A stretch of DNA of 58,790 bases, taken from assembly GCA_027013815.1 (NCBI GenBank), contig JALWFY010000029.1, positions 1-58,790 of the forward strand. Direction: 5' to 3'. The translations under genes and the position numbers were made by a program. This stretch comes from Desulfohalobiaceae bacterium (GTDB lineage: Bacteria > Desulfobacterota > Desulfovibrionia > Desulfovibrionales > Desulfothermaceae). The notes beneath the pieces are model-generated. The model worked only from the letters and a program-made list of their open reading frames with translations, was not told the origin of the DNA and did not search any database. Below are positions 2,212 to 51,276 of the stretch, in pieces. How positions within the stretch are numbered: the stretch's first letter is position 1; each line of letters opens with the position of its first letter.

Positions 2212-3115
2212 TTAAACTCTCTCTACCATTGTAGGTCTTTCTTCAAATGCTATAAAATTCATTATTAATTTCACCAATTGCTCTTTTTGTTCAGGTGGAC
2301 TTGCTGCTACAAGATAGCAAAGAGCTGTTAGGGTATTGCTGTTAAATTTAGTAAAAAGTTCTTGTTTTGAGATATTTTCATATAAAAATTACAAAAACAA
2401 AAGCGCGCCAATTCTCTTGTTTCCATCTACAAACGGATGATTTTTTATGACTAAATAAAGTAAATTTGCGGCTTTTTCCTCAAATGAAGGATAAAGTTCT
2501 TTACCGCCAAAACTTTGATAATATGATTTCAAGTAAACCTTTTACCTCTTTTGCAGTAAGAGAAGGGGAGTTAATATTGTCTTTTATAAACTTGACAGTA
2601 TTTACAAGCTCTTTTAATTTTTCTTTTGTAAGTCTTTTTTCATTGATTACATAGCCCTTAACAAGGTAATTTTTCAAAACATTTGTTGCCTAGATTCTAA
2701 ACTTAGTTGCTTTTTTAGAATTTACACGGTAACCAACGGCGATAATTACATCAAGGTTAAAATATTCAATTGTTCTTTTTACTTTTCTCTTACCCTCAAT
2801 TTGAACTGTTGCAAATTTTGCAACAGTTGAATCTCTTTCTAACTCACCGAAGCAAAGCTTCGGTGAGTTTGGCCTTTCAGGCCAAATGTTTAAATAAGGA
2901 ATATTTCCTTATTAAAAAATATGCGTAAGCACTAAGCGGAACTTTAGTTCCGCTGATTCAAAAATATTTCTAATATGTCTTGAAATAAATGATTTATCTT
3001 TTTCAAGTAAGGTGGCAATTTGATTAAGACTCAGCCAAATTGTTTCTTCCTTTAGCTGAACTTCAATTTTTTTATCCTTATCCTCAAAAATCACTAACTG
3101 ATTTTCATCCTTCAT
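2212..3115 (-). pseudogene. rhuM: RhuM-family protein with Fic domain, broken and interrupted
   Basis: The N-terminus (from the ATG at 3115) gives IWLSLNQIATLLEKDKSF and HIRNIFE, the RhuM start. A hairpin element then intervenes (2841-2954). Coding resumes with GELERDSTVAKFATVQ, RTIEYFNLDVIIAVGYRVNS and TKFRI, where a TAG stop replaces the usual Trp. Further on comes a Fic motif, [16 protein letters not shown], followed by a TAA stop, and the frame ends with LVKLIMNFIAFEERPTMVERV. Intact relatives are RhuM-Fic fusions of mobile regions; Fic domains transfer AMP. At least two internal stops plus the insertion make this a clear pseudogene. A further short coding-like stretch (LPIQYKKSEFLDQLK...LENLEKIEI) lies at 2097-2216 and is not recognised. 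Confidence 0.8.
2841..2954. repeat. Multi-hairpin element, copy A (inside the rhuM pseudogene)
   Basis: Four palindromes in order: AACTCACCGAAGC/GCTTCGGTGAGTT with an AAA loop (2841-2869); TTTGGCCT/AGGCCAAA with a TTC loop (2868-2886); AATAAGGAA/TTCCTTATT with a TAT loop (2893-2913); then GCGTAAG (2923-2929) and AGCGGAACT/AGTTCCGCT with a TT loop (2935-2954). The same order occurs at 20150, 29704 and 54661. The outer arm AACTCACC belongs to the rhuM coding sequence. Confidence 0.85.
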
Positions 3116-3177: not shown

Positions 3178-3440
3178 CTTAATCCTCATAAGTACAATGG
3201 CTAATTTTTCATCAGCATTCCATTTGCTCCTTTTCATAGGCAATCATCCCAAATGATTTCTAAAAGTTAGAGTTTACAACCTTCATAACACTTTCCTCGA
3301 TTCTAACTCTACCTTCTTTTTGTGTCCAATCCATTTGGGAGCAGTATATTTTATCCTCTATTGCAAAATTAAAATTACACTCAAATTGTTGACAAAAATT
3401 GTTACATAACATACGTATGTTTAAAAAAAATAATACAAGA

Positions 3441-3610
3441 TATAACGTTCTAGGTACCTTTAAGGTTTAAAAGGGAATCCGGTGTAAATCCGGAGCCGGC
3501 CCGCGGCTGTAACCAAGGACGAAAGCCGCAATATGCCACTGGAAAGCAGAAGTTTTCTGGGAAGGCGCGGTGAGTAGGAAGATCTGGAAGCCAGAAGACC
3601 TGCCTGGGAT
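3441..3610 (+). promoter_or_regulatory. Cobalamin riboswitch (B12 element)
   Basis: The conserved core reads in order: GGGAATCCGGTGTAAATCCGG, then GCCGGCCCGCGGCTGTAACC, GCCACTGG, GGGAAGGCG and the B12 box AGCCAGAAGACCTGCC (3589-3604). This is the adenosylcobalamin-sensing fold that normally represses vitamin B12 uptake or synthesis genes. A perfect 10-bp hairpin (3616-3649) and an intrinsic terminator (3684-3723) follow and probably form the expression platform. The gene it should control is reduced to a fragment at 3749-3859. Confidence 0.95.
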
Positions 3611-3683
3611 TTTGCCTTTAGGTTAGACGAGGTTTATTTTAACCTAAAGAAGAACTTTCAGAAAAATTTGGGGATAAAACGGG

Positions 3684-3723
3684 AATCCCTAAATCGCTTT
3701 TATGCGGTTTAGGGATTTTTTTG
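3684..3723 (+). terminator. Intrinsic terminator of the riboswitch leader
   Basis: AATCCCTAAATCGC pairs with GCGGTTTAGGGATT (14 pairs, one G-T) around a short loop, followed by a run of T. Placed 75 bases after the B12 box, it fits the ligand-controlled terminator of a transcriptional riboswitch. Confidence 0.85.
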
Positions 3724-3748
3724 TTTAAAATCCATAAGAAAGGGAAAT

Positions 3749-3859
3749 CATGAAATCAAAGTAAAAATAGAAAACTTGTTTGATAAATATTACTATGAAA
3801 AACCAGAATATCCTCTTCCTGGTAGATCTGTGTATGTAGAATATACGTTTAACTTTTAG
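3749..3859 (+). pseudogene. btuB: TonB-dependent receptor (BtuB-type), 3' remnant
   Basis: Codons 3752-3859 give EIKVKIENLFDKYYYEKPEY and PLPGRSVYVEYTFNF then a stop. This is the last part of an outer-membrane TonB receptor: the V.NLFDK.Y.....YPLPGRS signature and a C-terminal strand ending in aromatic F. A ribosome binding site-like AGAAAGGG and ATGAAATC lie immediately before it, but that ATG is out of frame and stops after four codons. The simplest reading is that the 5' start and the 3' tail remain and the middle, some 600 codons, was deleted. The position after a cobalamin riboswitch points to BtuB. Confidence 0.75.
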
Positions 3860-4028
3860 AAATAATCAAAACAAATGATAAATGTAAAAAAATCTCTTAT
3901 CAACAATAAGATACCCTGCTTTTTTTCAAAGAAATACAAACCAACAAGGAGATTATAAAGGCAGGTAAAGACAAAAAATTTAAAAAACATGTCGTTGGGT
4001 TAATATAAGGAAATTTCTATTTTATCTA

Positions 4029-4790
4029 ATGGTGGTGTCAATGGAAAGACTGTTTTTTAACTGGGCGTGTATTTTTTATACACTTTCATATTTGACTGCA
4101 TTATTAAGGAAAAAGACCCTGTGTTATTTTAGTTTTTTTCTGGGAATATTTATTAATTTGATATCAGTTAGTATATGTTTGTATCACAGTTTACCCTTAG
4201 TCCCTGTATTTCAAAAATCTCCTTTTATACCCCTTGTCTTTGCTATTGTATCTATCTTTTTTACAAAAAAAGAGGATAGAAACATATTGACTATCTATAT
4301 TACAGGCACTGTTTGTTTTTTATCTATATTGTACTCTCTCTTTCCAAAGGACTATTATTTACCATTTTTACAGACCAAAACTGTTTTTGCATTTTTATTT
4401 TTTATTTGTGCTATAATTGGAATAAATTTTTATCTCCTTGCAGGGATAATGTCCTTAAAAAAGCTTATCTCAAAGGATTTGATAGACCTTGGACAATCAA
4501 CTATAAATAAGGCCATTATATGGGGTATATTTTTTCAAACTATTTCCATGTTTTCAGGAGAAATATGGTCTTATATAATTTCTGGTTCTCCAATTGTTTT
4601 TAAAGATGCCTCAGTACTGGCATATACCAGTATATGGTTTTATTATATTGGATTTTTGCATTTGTATTTACTAAAAAAAATAAATATATATCAAAAAAAT
4701 ATATTTCTTATAACGGGTATAGTAATTGTATTTCTATTTTTTCTATACCCTGAGACAGGACCATTTACTATTCCAGGATTGTTGCCATGA
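4029..4790 (+). CDS. CcsA/ResC-like cytochrome c biogenesis membrane protein (divergent)
   Basis: A 253-residue, very hydrophobic protein with about eight predicted membrane segments. The region SGEIWSYIISGSP...SIWFYYIGFLHLYLL resembles the CcsA/ResC haem-handling segment in position and in the trailing histidine. However, the WGxxWxWD haem-binding signature is not preserved. In system II, CcsA with ResB carries haem across the membrane and attaches it to c-type cytochromes. The call rests mainly on the overlapping ResB-like neighbour. The start could also be the ATG at 4041; an AAGGA lies near 4007, rather distant from both. Confidence 0.5.
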   Translation: MVVSMERLFFNWACIFYTLSYLTALLRKKTLCYFSFFLGIFINLISVSICLYHSLPLVPVFQKSPFIPLVFAIVSIFFTKKEDRNILTIYITGTVCFLSILYSLFPKDYYLPFLQTKTVFAFLFFICAIIGINFYLLAGIMSLKKLISKDLIDLGQSTINKAIIWGIFFQTISMFSGEIWSYIISGSPIVFKDASVLAYTSIWFYYIGFLHLYLLKKINIYQKNIFLITGIVIVFLFFLYPETGPFTIPGLLP

Positions 4791-5551
4791 ATTGTATAAA
4801 AAATTTATGGAATATAATGGGAAATATTTATATTAGCGTATATCTTATTTTATTTATTATAATAGATTTATCTATTGGATACTTTTTTATTAAAAATTAT
4901 CCAAATATATTTTCTAAAATAAATGATATTGGATTGATTAACTGGATAAATACCTATGGGTTGTCTTATATAGGATATACATTTTGGTTCTTTTTGTTTT
5001 TAATATTATTGTTTTTATTTTCAATAAACATGTTTATCTGCACTACACAAAAAGTAAACCAAATACTAACGTCAAACTACTACAAAAATAGATTAACTAG
5101 GCTATCACCTCATATTATGCATTATGCAGTGATTTTTATTTTATGTGGATTTTTAGTAAATTATCTATTCTCTGATACAAAAACAGTAATTTTAATCCCC
5201 AATAAAAAAATAAAAGTGTTTAATGACCTATCTCTGAGTTTAAAAAATTTACACATTAGATATTATATGGGGAATAGACTGTCTTTTTTAGATAAAAAGG
5301 CCCTTTCATGTAGAGCAAAGATCAAAATACAATCCCCTAAAAAAACTGTATATAAAAGCATATCTATAAATTCACCAGGTGTATACTGGATCTATACCTT
5401 ACATCTCAGGGATTTTTCCCCAAAAACTAAATTCGCCATGAGTTCAAAAAAATATATACTCTTAACTGTAAAAAAAGATTATGGCATATATATTTATCTA
5501 TCAGGTACATTGATCTTTATTTTTGGACTTTTTATATACGTCATGATCTGA
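4787..5551 (+). CDS. ResB-like cytochrome c biogenesis protein
   Basis: A 254-residue membrane protein overlapping the preceding gene by four bases (ATGA), which implies translational coupling. It starts with a WNIMGNIYISVYLILFI membrane segment like the LWxxLxSxxxAIxLL start of ResB. Other membrane segments lie near residues 65-85, 110-128 (RLSPHIMHYAVIFILCGF, typical of ResB) and 235-254. A hydrophilic region of about 100 residues, probably periplasmic, separates the last two. ResB is usually 350-450 residues, so this is a short version. It would hold apocytochrome while the partner supplies haem. Confidence 0.55.
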   Translation: MNCIKNLWNIMGNIYISVYLILFIIIDLSIGYFFIKNYPNIFSKINDIGLINWINTYGLSYIGYTFWFFLFLILLFLFSINMFICTTQKVNQILTSNYYKNRLTRLSPHIMHYAVIFILCGFLVNYLFSDTKTVILIPNKKIKVFNDLSLSLKNLHIRYYMGNRLSFLDKKALSCRAKIKIQSPKKTVYKSISINSPGVYWIYTLHLRDFSPKTKFAMSSKKYILLTVKKDYGIYIYLSGTLIFIFGLFIYVMI

Positions 5552-5686: not shown

Positions 5687-8660
<2,974 letters not shown>

Positions 8661-9062
8661 ATGGAGACTGAGCAAAAGGGAGTCTTAAAAGGCAATGTCC
8701 TGGTAATGGAAGATGATCCCATAATCTCAGAGATTACCAAGACATTCTTAGAGGAAATTGGATTCAAAGTAAAGGTTTGTTCAAATGGAGAACAGGCCAT
8801 TAAAAGATATACAGAACAAATATCCATTGGAAATAAATTTGATATAGTAATAATGGACCTCACCATACACGGAGGAATGGGTGGGGAGAAGGCAATCCAA
8901 AAAATCCTAGAAATAGACAAAGGGGCCAATGTCATAGTTACAAGTGGGCATTGTAATAATCCTCTTATTGAACACTTTAGAGACTATGGTTTTGTTGGCA
9001 AGCTAATTAAACCATTTAGTTTAGATAAACTAAAAGAGGAGGTCTATAAAATAATAAGGTAG
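8661..9062 (+). CDS. Single-domain response regulator receiver (CheY-like)
   Basis: A 133-residue protein made only of a receiver domain. The acidic pair is in VMEDDP, the phospho-acceptor Asp in IVIMDLT, the switch Thr/Ser in VIVTSGH and the conserved Lys in IKPF. The HGGMGGEKAIQKI and DYGFVGKLIKPF segments resemble receivers at the C-terminus of hybrid histidine kinases more than chemotaxis CheY. It may thus be a phosphorelay intermediate or a relic of a hybrid kinase. A good ribosome binding site (AAGGAGAGG) precedes the ATG. No kinase is adjacent. Confidence 0.85.
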   Translation: METEQKGVLKGNVLVMEDDPIISEITKTFLEEIGFKVKVCSNGEQAIKRYTEQISIGNKFDIVIMDLTIHGGMGGEKAIQKILEIDKGANVIVTSGHCNNPLIEHFRDYGFVGKLIKPFSLDKLKEEVYKIIR

Positions 9063-9081
9063 ATGATTTCCCGCTATTTTT

Positions 9082-9789
9082 TTAATTTAGCCCCCTTTTT
9101 TTTGCTATGACCTCTAAATTTTCTTCTGCATCCGATGGCCTCAAATAAATAGGAGACAGGGGGCTTGTAGAATATTCAATCTTAGATGAGTATTTAATCA
9201 GTGATTCAAGAGAAGGTCTATCAAATACAGGGTCCAGTACTGTAATTGGCCATTTATCAAACAATTCTACATACCTCCTTACTCCACTTCCCAAGACATA
9301 GACCTCACCCTTATGAGTATCAAACAGGTCCTTTACTTTGTCCAACTTACATACCTTGGGAGGATGTAGGGGAGATATTGGGTCTGGACCAACAAACCCT
9401 TGAACATATACCAGATTTATTTTTGCATACAGTATGACAAAGACCCTTCCCTTGACACTCAAAAAGGCATTATGTGCAAGGAGATCTAAATAATTTATAC
9501 CCCCCATTGGGATATTCCTTGACATGGAGATACCTGTAAGTATGGAAATGGAAATCCTAAGCCCTGTAAATGAGCCTGGCCCAATAACACATGCCAGTCT
9601 ATTAATATCTGCAAGATCACTGTCTATTACTTTTAGACAACTATTTATCAACTTAGGTGTCAATACAATACCCTGTCTCTCTGCCCTGGTCTCCATTCCA
9701 CATAGGAGCCCAGTTCCATCACCTATGGCCAGTTGAATATAATCTTCTGAAGAATTTACACAAAGAGTCTTTTTTTCCTGATTGGTCAT
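9082..9789 (-). CDS. tsaB: tRNA threonylcarbamoyladenosine biosynthesis protein TsaB
   Basis: A 235-residue ASKHA-fold protein. The start KKTLCVNSSEDYIQLAI and the GPGSFTGLRISISI motif (about residues 70-85) are diagnostic of TsaB. It forms the scaffold with TsaD and TsaE that transfers threonylcarbamoyl to A37 of ANN-decoding tRNAs. It is the last gene of the rpsB-to-tsaB block and follows rseP without a gap, so it is almost certainly co-transcribed and coupled. No TsaD is in the window. Confidence 0.93.
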   Translation of the reverse strand: MTNQEKKTLCVNSSEDYIQLAIGDGTGLLCGMETRAERQGIVLTPKLINSCLKVIDSDLADINRLACVIGPGSFTGLRISISILTGISMSRNIPMGGINYLDLLAHNAFLSVKGRVFVILYAKINLVYVQGFVGPDPISPLHPPKVCKLDKVKDLFDTHKGEVYVLGSGVRRYVELFDKWPITVLDPVFDRPSLESLIKYSSKIEYSTSPLSPIYLRPSDAEENLEVIAKKRGLN

Positions 9790-10857
9790 CTATTTATTTC
9801 CAATTATCCTATGAATATCGTTATAAACTGCTAGCATCATCAATGCGATTAGCAATGTGAGCCCTATTTTTACTGCTATTTCCTTGACCCTAGGACTTAG
9901 TGGACGCCTCATGATCATTTCAAGAAAATAAAACAGCAAATGTCCTCCATCTAATACAGGGATAGGCAATAGATTTAATAGTCCTAAATTAATGCTAATG
10001 AGTGCAGTCAATCCAAGTAAATCCCATATCCCGGCCTTTGCCTCTTGAGACACCAATTGGGCAATCATTATTGGACCGCCAATATTTTCCACTGGAACCA
10101 CCCTTTCTATCAACTTAACAATCCCTTCCACAGTAAGTTTAGTAACTACCCATGTCTGGTCAATAGATGATGTAAGGGCCTGGTATGGTCCTAGGTTTAA
10201 ATGGGTCCATTCATTTGCCGCTATAATACCGATCCTAGGAACCTTGACCTGTTCTCCAAATATGTTTTTTGCAACCTCAATCTTTGGAACAATTTTAAAC
10301 AAAAGTGTCCTATCCTGCCTTTTAATCTTAATCAATAGGGGATATTTTTTTGCCTTAGATACCACCTCCACTATGTCCTGCCAGTATTTTGTCTTCTTCC
10401 CATTGATCTCAATTATCTTATCACCTTTTTTTAGCCCTGCGAGCTTTGCAGGAGATCCATCTACTATACCCCCTATCTTTGTGGTAAGGACCTGCTGTCC
10501 AACGTTTAAAAAGATCAAAAAGTAGAGTATCCACGCAAGTATCAAGTTAAATATAGGGCCGGCAGCAACCACTAATATCCGTTGTATAGGAGGTCTTTTA
10601 GAAAAATCCTCTTTTTCTGTAAATCTTGGGTCATATTCTTCGTCTTCTTCCCCATATAATTTCACATACCCACCCAAAGGGATAACAGAAATCTTATATT
10701 CTGTTTTTCCCCAAGTAAATCCCACAAGCTTTTTTCCAAACCCAAGAGAAAAGACCTTGACTCCAATCCTTAATATTTTGGCCACCAAAAAATGTCCTAA
10801 TTCATGGAAGAATATCAAGAGCCCAAGGACAAATATCACTGCTAATATACTGACCAT
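9790..10857 (-). CDS. rseP: Site-2 intramembrane metalloprotease RseP
   Basis: A 355-residue inner-membrane zinc protease. The catalytic HELGH is in the first membrane segment (residues about 18-22) and the third zinc ligand is in NLLPIPVLDGGH near residue 310. A single PDZ domain occupies about 110-190. Membrane segments are predicted at both ends. RseP cuts anti-sigma factors and leftover signal peptides within the membrane. Gene order dxr-rseP is conserved in many bacteria, and only three bases separate it from dxr. Confidence 0.95.
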   Translation of the reverse strand: MVSILAVIFVLGLLIFFHELGHFLVAKILRIGVKVFSLGFGKKLVGFTWGKTEYKISVIPLGGYVKLYGEEDEEYDPRFTEKEDFSKRPPIQRILVVAAGPIFNLILAWILYFLIFLNVGQQVLTTKIGGIVDGSPAKLAGLKKGDKIIEINGKKTKYWQDIVEVVSKAKKYPLLIKIKRQDRTLLFKIVPKIEVAKNIFGEQVKVPRIGIIAANEWTHLNLGPYQALTSSIDQTWVVTKLTVEGIVKLIERVVPVENIGGPIMIAQLVSQEAKAGIWDLLGLTALISINLGLLNLLPIPVLDGGHLLFYFLEMIMRRPLSPRVKEIAVKIGLTLLIALMMLAVYNDIHRIIGNK

Positions 10858-50885: not shown

Positions 50886-51276
50886 ATACCCTTCCCTTGA
50901 CCTGTTTTTATATGTTTAGAATAAGACACTAAAAAATTATTCATGTTCCAACTAGTTAGGACATGATGTTGATCCAGAAGAGGTTCTTTTTTTGGATAGT
51001 AAATATATAGGGATAGATAAAAATTAAGGCATGTTAAAAACATTATGGAGTCCCCTTTTAAATCACAATTTCCTGCTGAAAATTAATTATTTTACAATAG
51101 GAGTCATCAGCCCATGTACTGCAGGCAGTTTAAGGGGGACTCCGTCCCCATCTTTATTTAAAAGATTCTATATATTAAGGATCAAAATTGTCAAGCGATG
51201 CCTAAAAAAGGAGCTATAAAAACTTTGTAATAAGATTATCCCATAAGGAATACATACATATAATTTCCAATATTTT
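50886..51276. other. Gap between the mutS-like pair and the LOG gene
   Basis: About 390 bases without a supported gene. A short stem GGGGAC/GTCCCC with a TCC loop (51135-51149) resembles, on a small scale, the end stems of the multi-hairpin elements. The promoter of the mutS-like pair must lie here, but I see no convincing motif. Confidence 0.4.

Follow-up and report, generated by a model that had tools for sequence, protein, structure and literature searches.

The window analysed here, that is the whole stretch of 58,790 nucleotides, is an entire contig (C29), one of 219 contigs in the 2.59 Mb genome of a Desulfohalobiaceae bacterium. Close to its start the forward strand carries a cobalamin riboswitch aptamer (3435–3621), an intrinsic-terminator-like hairpin with a T run (3681–3720), a ribosome-binding-site-like sequence with an ATG (3737–3764), the remnant of a TonB-dependent receptor gene (3746–3859) and two genes encoding membrane proteins, one CcsA-like (4029–4790) and one ResB-like (4787–5551). 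Inspection of all six frames by eye revealed no recognisable gene in the 169 bases between the remnant and ccsA (3860–4028). Upstream of the riboswitch, at 2389–3115 on the reverse strand, short successive ORFs resemble pieces of one broken gene, possibly of RhuM- or Fic-like origin, and are interrupted by a short inverted-repeat-rich stretch at about 2840–2930. A fluoride riboswitch (RF01734, 49.4 bits) is located at 51091–51158 on the reverse strand.

The aptamer matches the covariance model RF00174 over its full length (1–189; E 2.7e-32), and its score of 129.5 bits exceeds the gathering score of 31.5. It is the highest scoring of the six cobalamin riboswitches in its own genome, and ranks second among the matches listed for 61 related genomes, where the best reaches 132.6 bits. 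The hairpin that follows has 17 pairs, six of them G-C, and is the only terminator-like site found on the forward strand between 3200 and 4100. An earlier sequence-only reading of the locus described a complete B12 element with a terminator behind it, and both are borne out. When the full-length RNA is folded with ViennaRNA, the inner pairs of the terminator have a probability of about 1.0. For an RNA ending at 3700, an antiterminator hairpin (3666–3694), exclusive with the terminator, is predicted instead, in which 3666–3675 pairs with 3685–3694 at probabilities of 0.69–1.0. The 5' arm of the terminator (3685–3694) is thus predicted to change its partner from 3666–3675 to the 3' arm once the RNA is complete. 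A terminator-like hairpin together with an alternative pairing constitutes a predicted expression platform, and the arrangement would suit transcription attenuation. Antiterminator-like sequences are also found ahead of the terminators of the riboswitch on contig C87 of the same genome (L056) and of a riboswitch in genome G001 (L052).

A possible promoter (3389–3421) can be read from the sequence in front of the aptamer, with TTGACA at 3389–3394 and TACGTA at 3412–3417, 17 nt apart. This pair is absent from the promoter-scan listing of the region, and the scan gave another weak forward site at 3406–3434 (9 of 12). The 14-bp perfect palindrome AACATACGTATGTT (3408–3421) covers what is probably the -10 element of the promoter for the riboswitch, and is perhaps an operator.

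The ribosome-binding-site-like sequence AGAAAGGG is followed by an ATG at 3750, which opens a frame of four codons only, M-K-S-K-stop. In another frame 3746–3856 translates as NHEIKVKIENLFDKYYYEKPEYPLPGRSVYVEYTFNF, with a stop codon ending at 3859. Long TonB receptors in genomes G026 (47%, E 1.3e-7) and G015 (59%, E 1.4e-6), each encoded just 3' of a cobalamin riboswitch, end in a C-terminus that matches this tail. Because its matches are long, riboswitch-led receptors, the tail is not a chance similarity. For a plug and a 22-stranded barrel, the window offers the last approximately 36 codons only. The earlier description of a ribosome-binding site and ATG, followed in another frame by the last 35 codons of a receptor, was accurate.

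The accompanying claim that the regulated gene had been deleted stands as far as the loss of the receptor gene is concerned, which is well supported by the remnant. A relative with the undeleted locus was found neither among the 61 related genomes, where the downstream CcsA-like protein matches only its own genome and G005, nor among 348 genomes of the order, where strong profile matches are limited to the same two (E 1.8e-80 and 1.5e-84) and three weaker ones occur in G007, G009 and G010 (6e-22 to 9e-24). The G005 copy falls in another clade of CcsA-like proteins. A comparison with relatives for an intact btuB at this position had been proposed; it yielded none. The loss is hence read from the remnant and not from an undeleted relative, and the picture would be no different had the locus undergone some rearrangement that was not a simple deletion. 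Since the tail frame runs through the ATG at 3750 and no undeleted copy was found, the breakpoint can be placed only somewhere about 3725–3764, and the ATG may or may not be the old start.

Another explanation for a receptor reduced to its tail would be misassembly or a mixture of strains, with an intact receptor at this place in the real genome. The fragmentation of the draft into 219 contigs speaks for it. Against it, neither flank is repeated in the genome, the tail gives one 100% match (its own site) and one of 38%, the four receptors retrieved by a barrel search have ends unlike the tail, and a degenerate receptor fragment on contig C170 is not an intact copy; we consider such an artefact quite improbable. 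The C170 fragment (L089, about 3440–3720, forward strand) comprises the plug and the start of the barrel of another TonB receptor, with a stop nearby, which suggests that the receptor genes of the genome undergo turnover. Frameshifts in the receptor gene of G001 are judged likely to be sequencing error and not decay, as they are located at A runs in a genome that is 43% complete.

Contig C171 encodes an intact receptor of 668 aa. Its closest counterparts are two receptors led by riboswitches, in G001 (72% over 399 aa) and G006 (54% over 656 aa), together with a fragment in G003 (76% over 218 aa). No riboswitch was found on C171, which ends about 400 bases upstream of the receptor gene. The possibility that the genome had lost its only candidate B12 receptor was rejected in view of this intact related receptor.

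The CcsA-like protein of 253 aa was identified with a profile of four relatives, and its start may be at 4041. It has no Pfam or NCBIfam match at E 0.001; its relatives L121 and L122 match Cytochrom_C_asm. The gene for the ResB-like protein overlaps the ccsA stop codon, and its 254-aa product was identified by the Pfam ResB model (E 8.9e-08) and by alignment with relatives. The AlphaFold model of the CcsA-like protein (pLDDT 86.0, pTM 0.86) gave no match with E below 0.001 in plain Foldseek. A second look with VIA-align matched it to CcmF (6zmq; Z 19.0, rmsd 3.6, 238 residues) and CcsBA (7s9y; Z 18.8, rmsd 3.2, 236 residues, 13% identity). Next in rank came another CcsBA entry and CcmC, and no unrelated fold scored above Z 11.0. 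In sequence searches of the PDB the CcsA-like profile had no match, and the ResB-like one had just three, all weak and to ribosomal proteins (E 0.18–0.94).

When 395 genomes of the phylum were searched with the profile, 23 gave E-values of 1e-25 or better, followed by a step to 6e-22 and weaker, where the canonical CcsA proteins begin. A tree of 32 CcsA-type proteins, from which L138 and L140 were excluded for their broken or partial frames, places the window protein in a clade of 14 (support 99/99), and the canonical CcsA proteins in a separate group (100/100). The 13 other members of the clade have a binding protein of the same kind encoded beside the CcsA-like gene; in the genome studied here, its gene is on contig C165. 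The gene order in L121 and L122 is receptor, CcsA-like, ResB-like, binding protein, FecCD permease and ATPase. An ExbD gene is present in L131 and chelatase-like genes in L123 and L135. The binding protein also adjoins the CcsA-like gene in L133 (G397), yet this locus falls outside the clade.

Of the 14 members, 11 have a same-strand cobalamin riboswitch upstream (the window, L047, L048, L122, L124, L125, L128, L130, L131, L135 and L137). No gene intervenes in L048, L130, L135 and L137; the distance is about 5 kb in L047 and about 8 kb in L125 and L128, where receptor-like genes lie in between, joined in L125 by a CobN-like gene. For the remaining three, no riboswitch was found upstream in L121, where the contig ends inside the receptor gene, nor in L123 and L132 despite long upstream flanks. 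Among the 11 clade genomes included in a placement test, 8 have a riboswitch within 10 kb, and the probability of at least 8 under uniform placement is 8e-14, an optimistic value given that the clade was defined after looking. Contig ends often cut the flanks. Outside the clade, the stretches scanned contained no riboswitch near any of 13 CcsA-like loci, nor near any of four canonical CcsA loci (L148–L150 lay outside the scan).

The histidines of the pair bear on its function. CcsBA, the cytochrome c synthetase of System II, also exports heme. It binds heme in the membrane through two transmembrane His, has two periplasmic His that flank the WWD domain and serve an external site, and cannot mature cytochrome c unless all four are present (PMC6299221); we named the alignment columns by position after this source. 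The TM-His2 column is His in every full-length CcsA row, and the TM-His1 column in 26 of 26 ResB rows, the window proteins included in both cases. At the P-His1 column the window CcsA-like protein has Phe, and it lacks any His near its C-terminus; both periplasmic positions are His in 7 of 7 canonical CcsA proteins. Within the clade, His occupies the P-His1 column in three of 14 members (L132, L135 and L137) and the position two residues before it in nine, L132 having both, while the window protein, L048 and L130 have neither. The loss of the periplasmic His is therefore clear for the sequences of these three and less so for the rest of the clade. Furthermore, all 15 ResB-like proteins linked to the binding protein carry an additional His, three residues ahead of TM-His1 (PHIMH), which is found in none of 10 others and is absent from the one canonical ResB compared.

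These features were weighed against the view that the pair forms a normal cytochrome c synthetase of System II and follows a riboswitch by chance. In its favour, the fold resembles CcsBA and CcmF and the transmembrane His are kept. As compared with CcsBA (PMC6299221), however, the predicted fold and both transmembrane His positions are shared, whereas the WWD-like segment is altered, the ResB part is much smaller at 254 aa, and the genes are tied to those for a TonB receptor, FecCD permease and binding protein. Because the window CcsA-like protein is without the two periplasmic heme-ligand His, cytochrome c synthesis is unlikely; with the canonical CcsA proteins grouping apart and the clade linked to uptake genes, we rejected a role in cytochrome c maturation, and chance placement of a System II enzyme is very improbable indeed. 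The best inference is that the pair forms a membrane device for a tetrapyrrole, heme or corrinoid, in corrinoid uptake.

The other cobalamin riboswitches of the genome lie on contigs C79, C119, C165 and C87. Downstream of the one on C79 lies a BtuC/D/F-like set, and downstream of that on C119 lies CbiK. On C165 one riboswitch leads a unit of binding protein, FecCD permease and ATPase. At 8459–10262 on the forward strand of L054, from the same contig, another cobalamin riboswitch precedes the gene for a radical SAM peptide maturase of the CbpB type (TIGR04163, 641.8 bits), a neighbourhood found again in G001 and G002. The binding protein and permease of C165 are closer to the counterparts in CcsA/ResB clusters than are those of C79, and for this reason the uptake system seems, as judged by sequence similarity, to be split into two riboswitch units in this genome. 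The riboswitch and terminator on C87 (L056, 2913–3179, forward strand) are followed by no forward-strand ORF of at least 80 aa in the stretch fetched downstream, and the next gene is convergent. This riboswitch is a better candidate for a true orphan than the one in the window.

The binding protein on C165 (L054, 3303–4367, reverse strand) has an in-frame TGA at residue 259, where homologues have Cys. Among the 17 family members read, the column holds UGA in six (own genome, L048, L121, L122, G431 and G225) and Cys in 11, a count that leaves out six weaker matches (C182 and C226 of G351, C62 and two on C148 of G424, and one in G397); a distant paralogue in G351 (L154) has Thr. The family occurs in 16 of 395 phylum-sample genomes at E 1e-40. 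A SECIS-like hairpin 3' of the UGA was obtained in all four sequences folded (own genome, L048, L121 and L122), with a stem of at least 7 bp, a loop of 4–6 nt, a G in the first two positions of the loop, a distance of about 19–20 nt from the UGA and energies of -8.8 to -12.4 over 42 nt, which places them inside published bacterial SECIS limits. One of six intended Cys homologues, L135, was left out of the folding, and another, L047, folds a weaker hairpin at the same place, so that the fold alone is not proof. SelB, by which alone the Sec machinery was scored, is above the cut-off in 7 of 7 genomes searched (392 bits against 242 in the own genome). The C165 binding protein is thus a probable selenoprotein on sequence grounds.

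A 2026 inventory (PMC13188914) lists predicted selenoprotein binding proteins of ABC transporters, namely BtuF (cd01144, with a CxxU motif), SaoX and SaoB, and these resemble the C165 protein in combining that function with Sec. The CxxU BtuF is credited there to PMC5029168, in whose main text, as far as accessible, the name BtuF does not occur. In the six UGA proteins read here Gly stands three residues before U, giving GxxU instead of CxxU. The C165 protein probably represents a new selenoprotein subfamily, set apart from the BtuF of the inventory by this motif and not by a comparison of BtuF sequences. It reaches the cut-off of no NCBIfam family. A search with its predicted structure (pLDDT 91.6) placed BtuF at ranks 9 and 18, interspersed with proteins that bind heme or siderophores; the fold search cannot separate B12 from heme or siderophore as substrate. 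As the model matches all three kinds of binder alike, a corrinoid substrate is suggested by the link to the riboswitch.

The sequence-only reading regarded the riboswitch as an orphan. This is not supported, because the genes that follow it fall in a clade most of whose members are preceded by a cobalamin riboswitch. The riboswitch probably still controls ccsA/resB. Of the two roles that had been left to it, a short transcript only or read-through into ccsA/resB, the clade-wide link favours the latter. We consider it probable, with some reservation, that the riboswitch is the former leader of a receptor-first uptake operon and now directly leads ccsA/resB for corrinoid uptake. Ancestrally it would have led a corrinoid-uptake operon starting with the TonB receptor, followed by the CcsA-like/ResB-like pair, and loss of the receptor except for its end would have made it the direct leader of the pair. 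With little B12, the nascent RNA would form the antiterminator and RNA polymerase would read into ccsA-resB; with B12 bound, the terminator would form and the pair would be switched off, a response it would share with the binding protein–FecCD–ATPase unit under the C165 riboswitch. The pair would then serve the C165-type uptake system as a membrane tetrapyrrole device rather than as a cytochrome c synthetase.

The main competitor is a truly orphan or decaying locus, which yields a short terminated transcript only, with ccsA/resB independently expressed or disappearing. The receptor is gone, and the same genome has a candidate true orphan in the C87 riboswitch. Moreover, the end branch of the window CcsA-like protein (1.61) is among the two longest (L130 1.62; median 0.58), its composition was flagged as deviating in the tree analysis, and nearly invariant tryptophans are missing, the LGWGSPVVW of the family being replaced by IISGSPIVF. 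The long branch and the missing tryptophans fit relaxed selection on this protein, and a recent relaxation following the loss of the receptor is possible. Against decay stand the high rank of the aptamer, the clade-wide tie of the gene pair to cobalamin riboswitches, and both frames being intact; the well-kept aptamer and the two frames speak for continued use. In neutral simulations, 15–18% of runs kept a frame open at a rate of 0.05 hits per site, and 0–0.25% did so at 0.2 hits per site. Codon-position base composition gave no means of telling selection from decay. Weighing against the main reading, besides the points on the CcsA-like protein, are the 169 bases ahead of ccsA with no recognisable gene, the lack of a riboswitch upstream of L123 and L132, and the outcome of the searches for an undeleted copy of the locus, which found none. 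On balance we regard an orphan or decaying locus as unlikely, and prefer continued control of ccsA/resB by the riboswitch.

Loci in which a cobalamin riboswitch leads btuB and B12 transport genes have been described for deltaproteobacteria (PMC545781). The window shares with them the aptamer, the terminator and transport genes under riboswitch control, but its receptor is only a tail and the next genes are CcsA/ResB-like, which the part of that source available does not mention. The module has in common with BtuBFCD the TonB receptor, a binding protein of BtuF/heme/siderophore fold, the FecCD permease, the ATPase and riboswitch control; it differs by the added CcsA/ResB-like pair, by the probable Sec in the binding protein of some genomes and by a substrate that is putative. 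To our knowledge, neither a CcsA/ResB-like pair nor a binding protein with Sec in place of its conserved Cys in some lineages is known for B12 uptake. Searches of the open-access literature (PMC) found nothing joining a cobalamin riboswitch with ResB, for cytochrome c biogenesis only a paper on Magnetospirillum, and no description of a B12-riboswitch-linked uptake module with a CcsA/ResB-like pair.

It is conceivable, at slightly less than even chances, that anaerobes possess a riboswitch-controlled corrinoid-uptake module to which a CcsA/ResB-like pair and a Sec/Cys binding protein have been added, and which is split in this genome with its own receptor lost. The pair would in that case keep the transmembrane tetrapyrrole site and not the active site for cytochrome c, and may pass electrons to, or directly handle, the corrinoid held by the Sec/Cys protein. 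The present data do not distinguish between these two roles. The locus illustrates how a riboswitch may survive the loss of its operon's leading gene and be taken over by the genes that follow. On a wider view, it brings to light a conserved association of B12 riboswitches with a membrane pair of heme-handling fold and a probable selenoprotein binding protein, and through this association a possible redox or tetrapyrrole-handling step in the import of corrinoids becomes accessible to direct tests.
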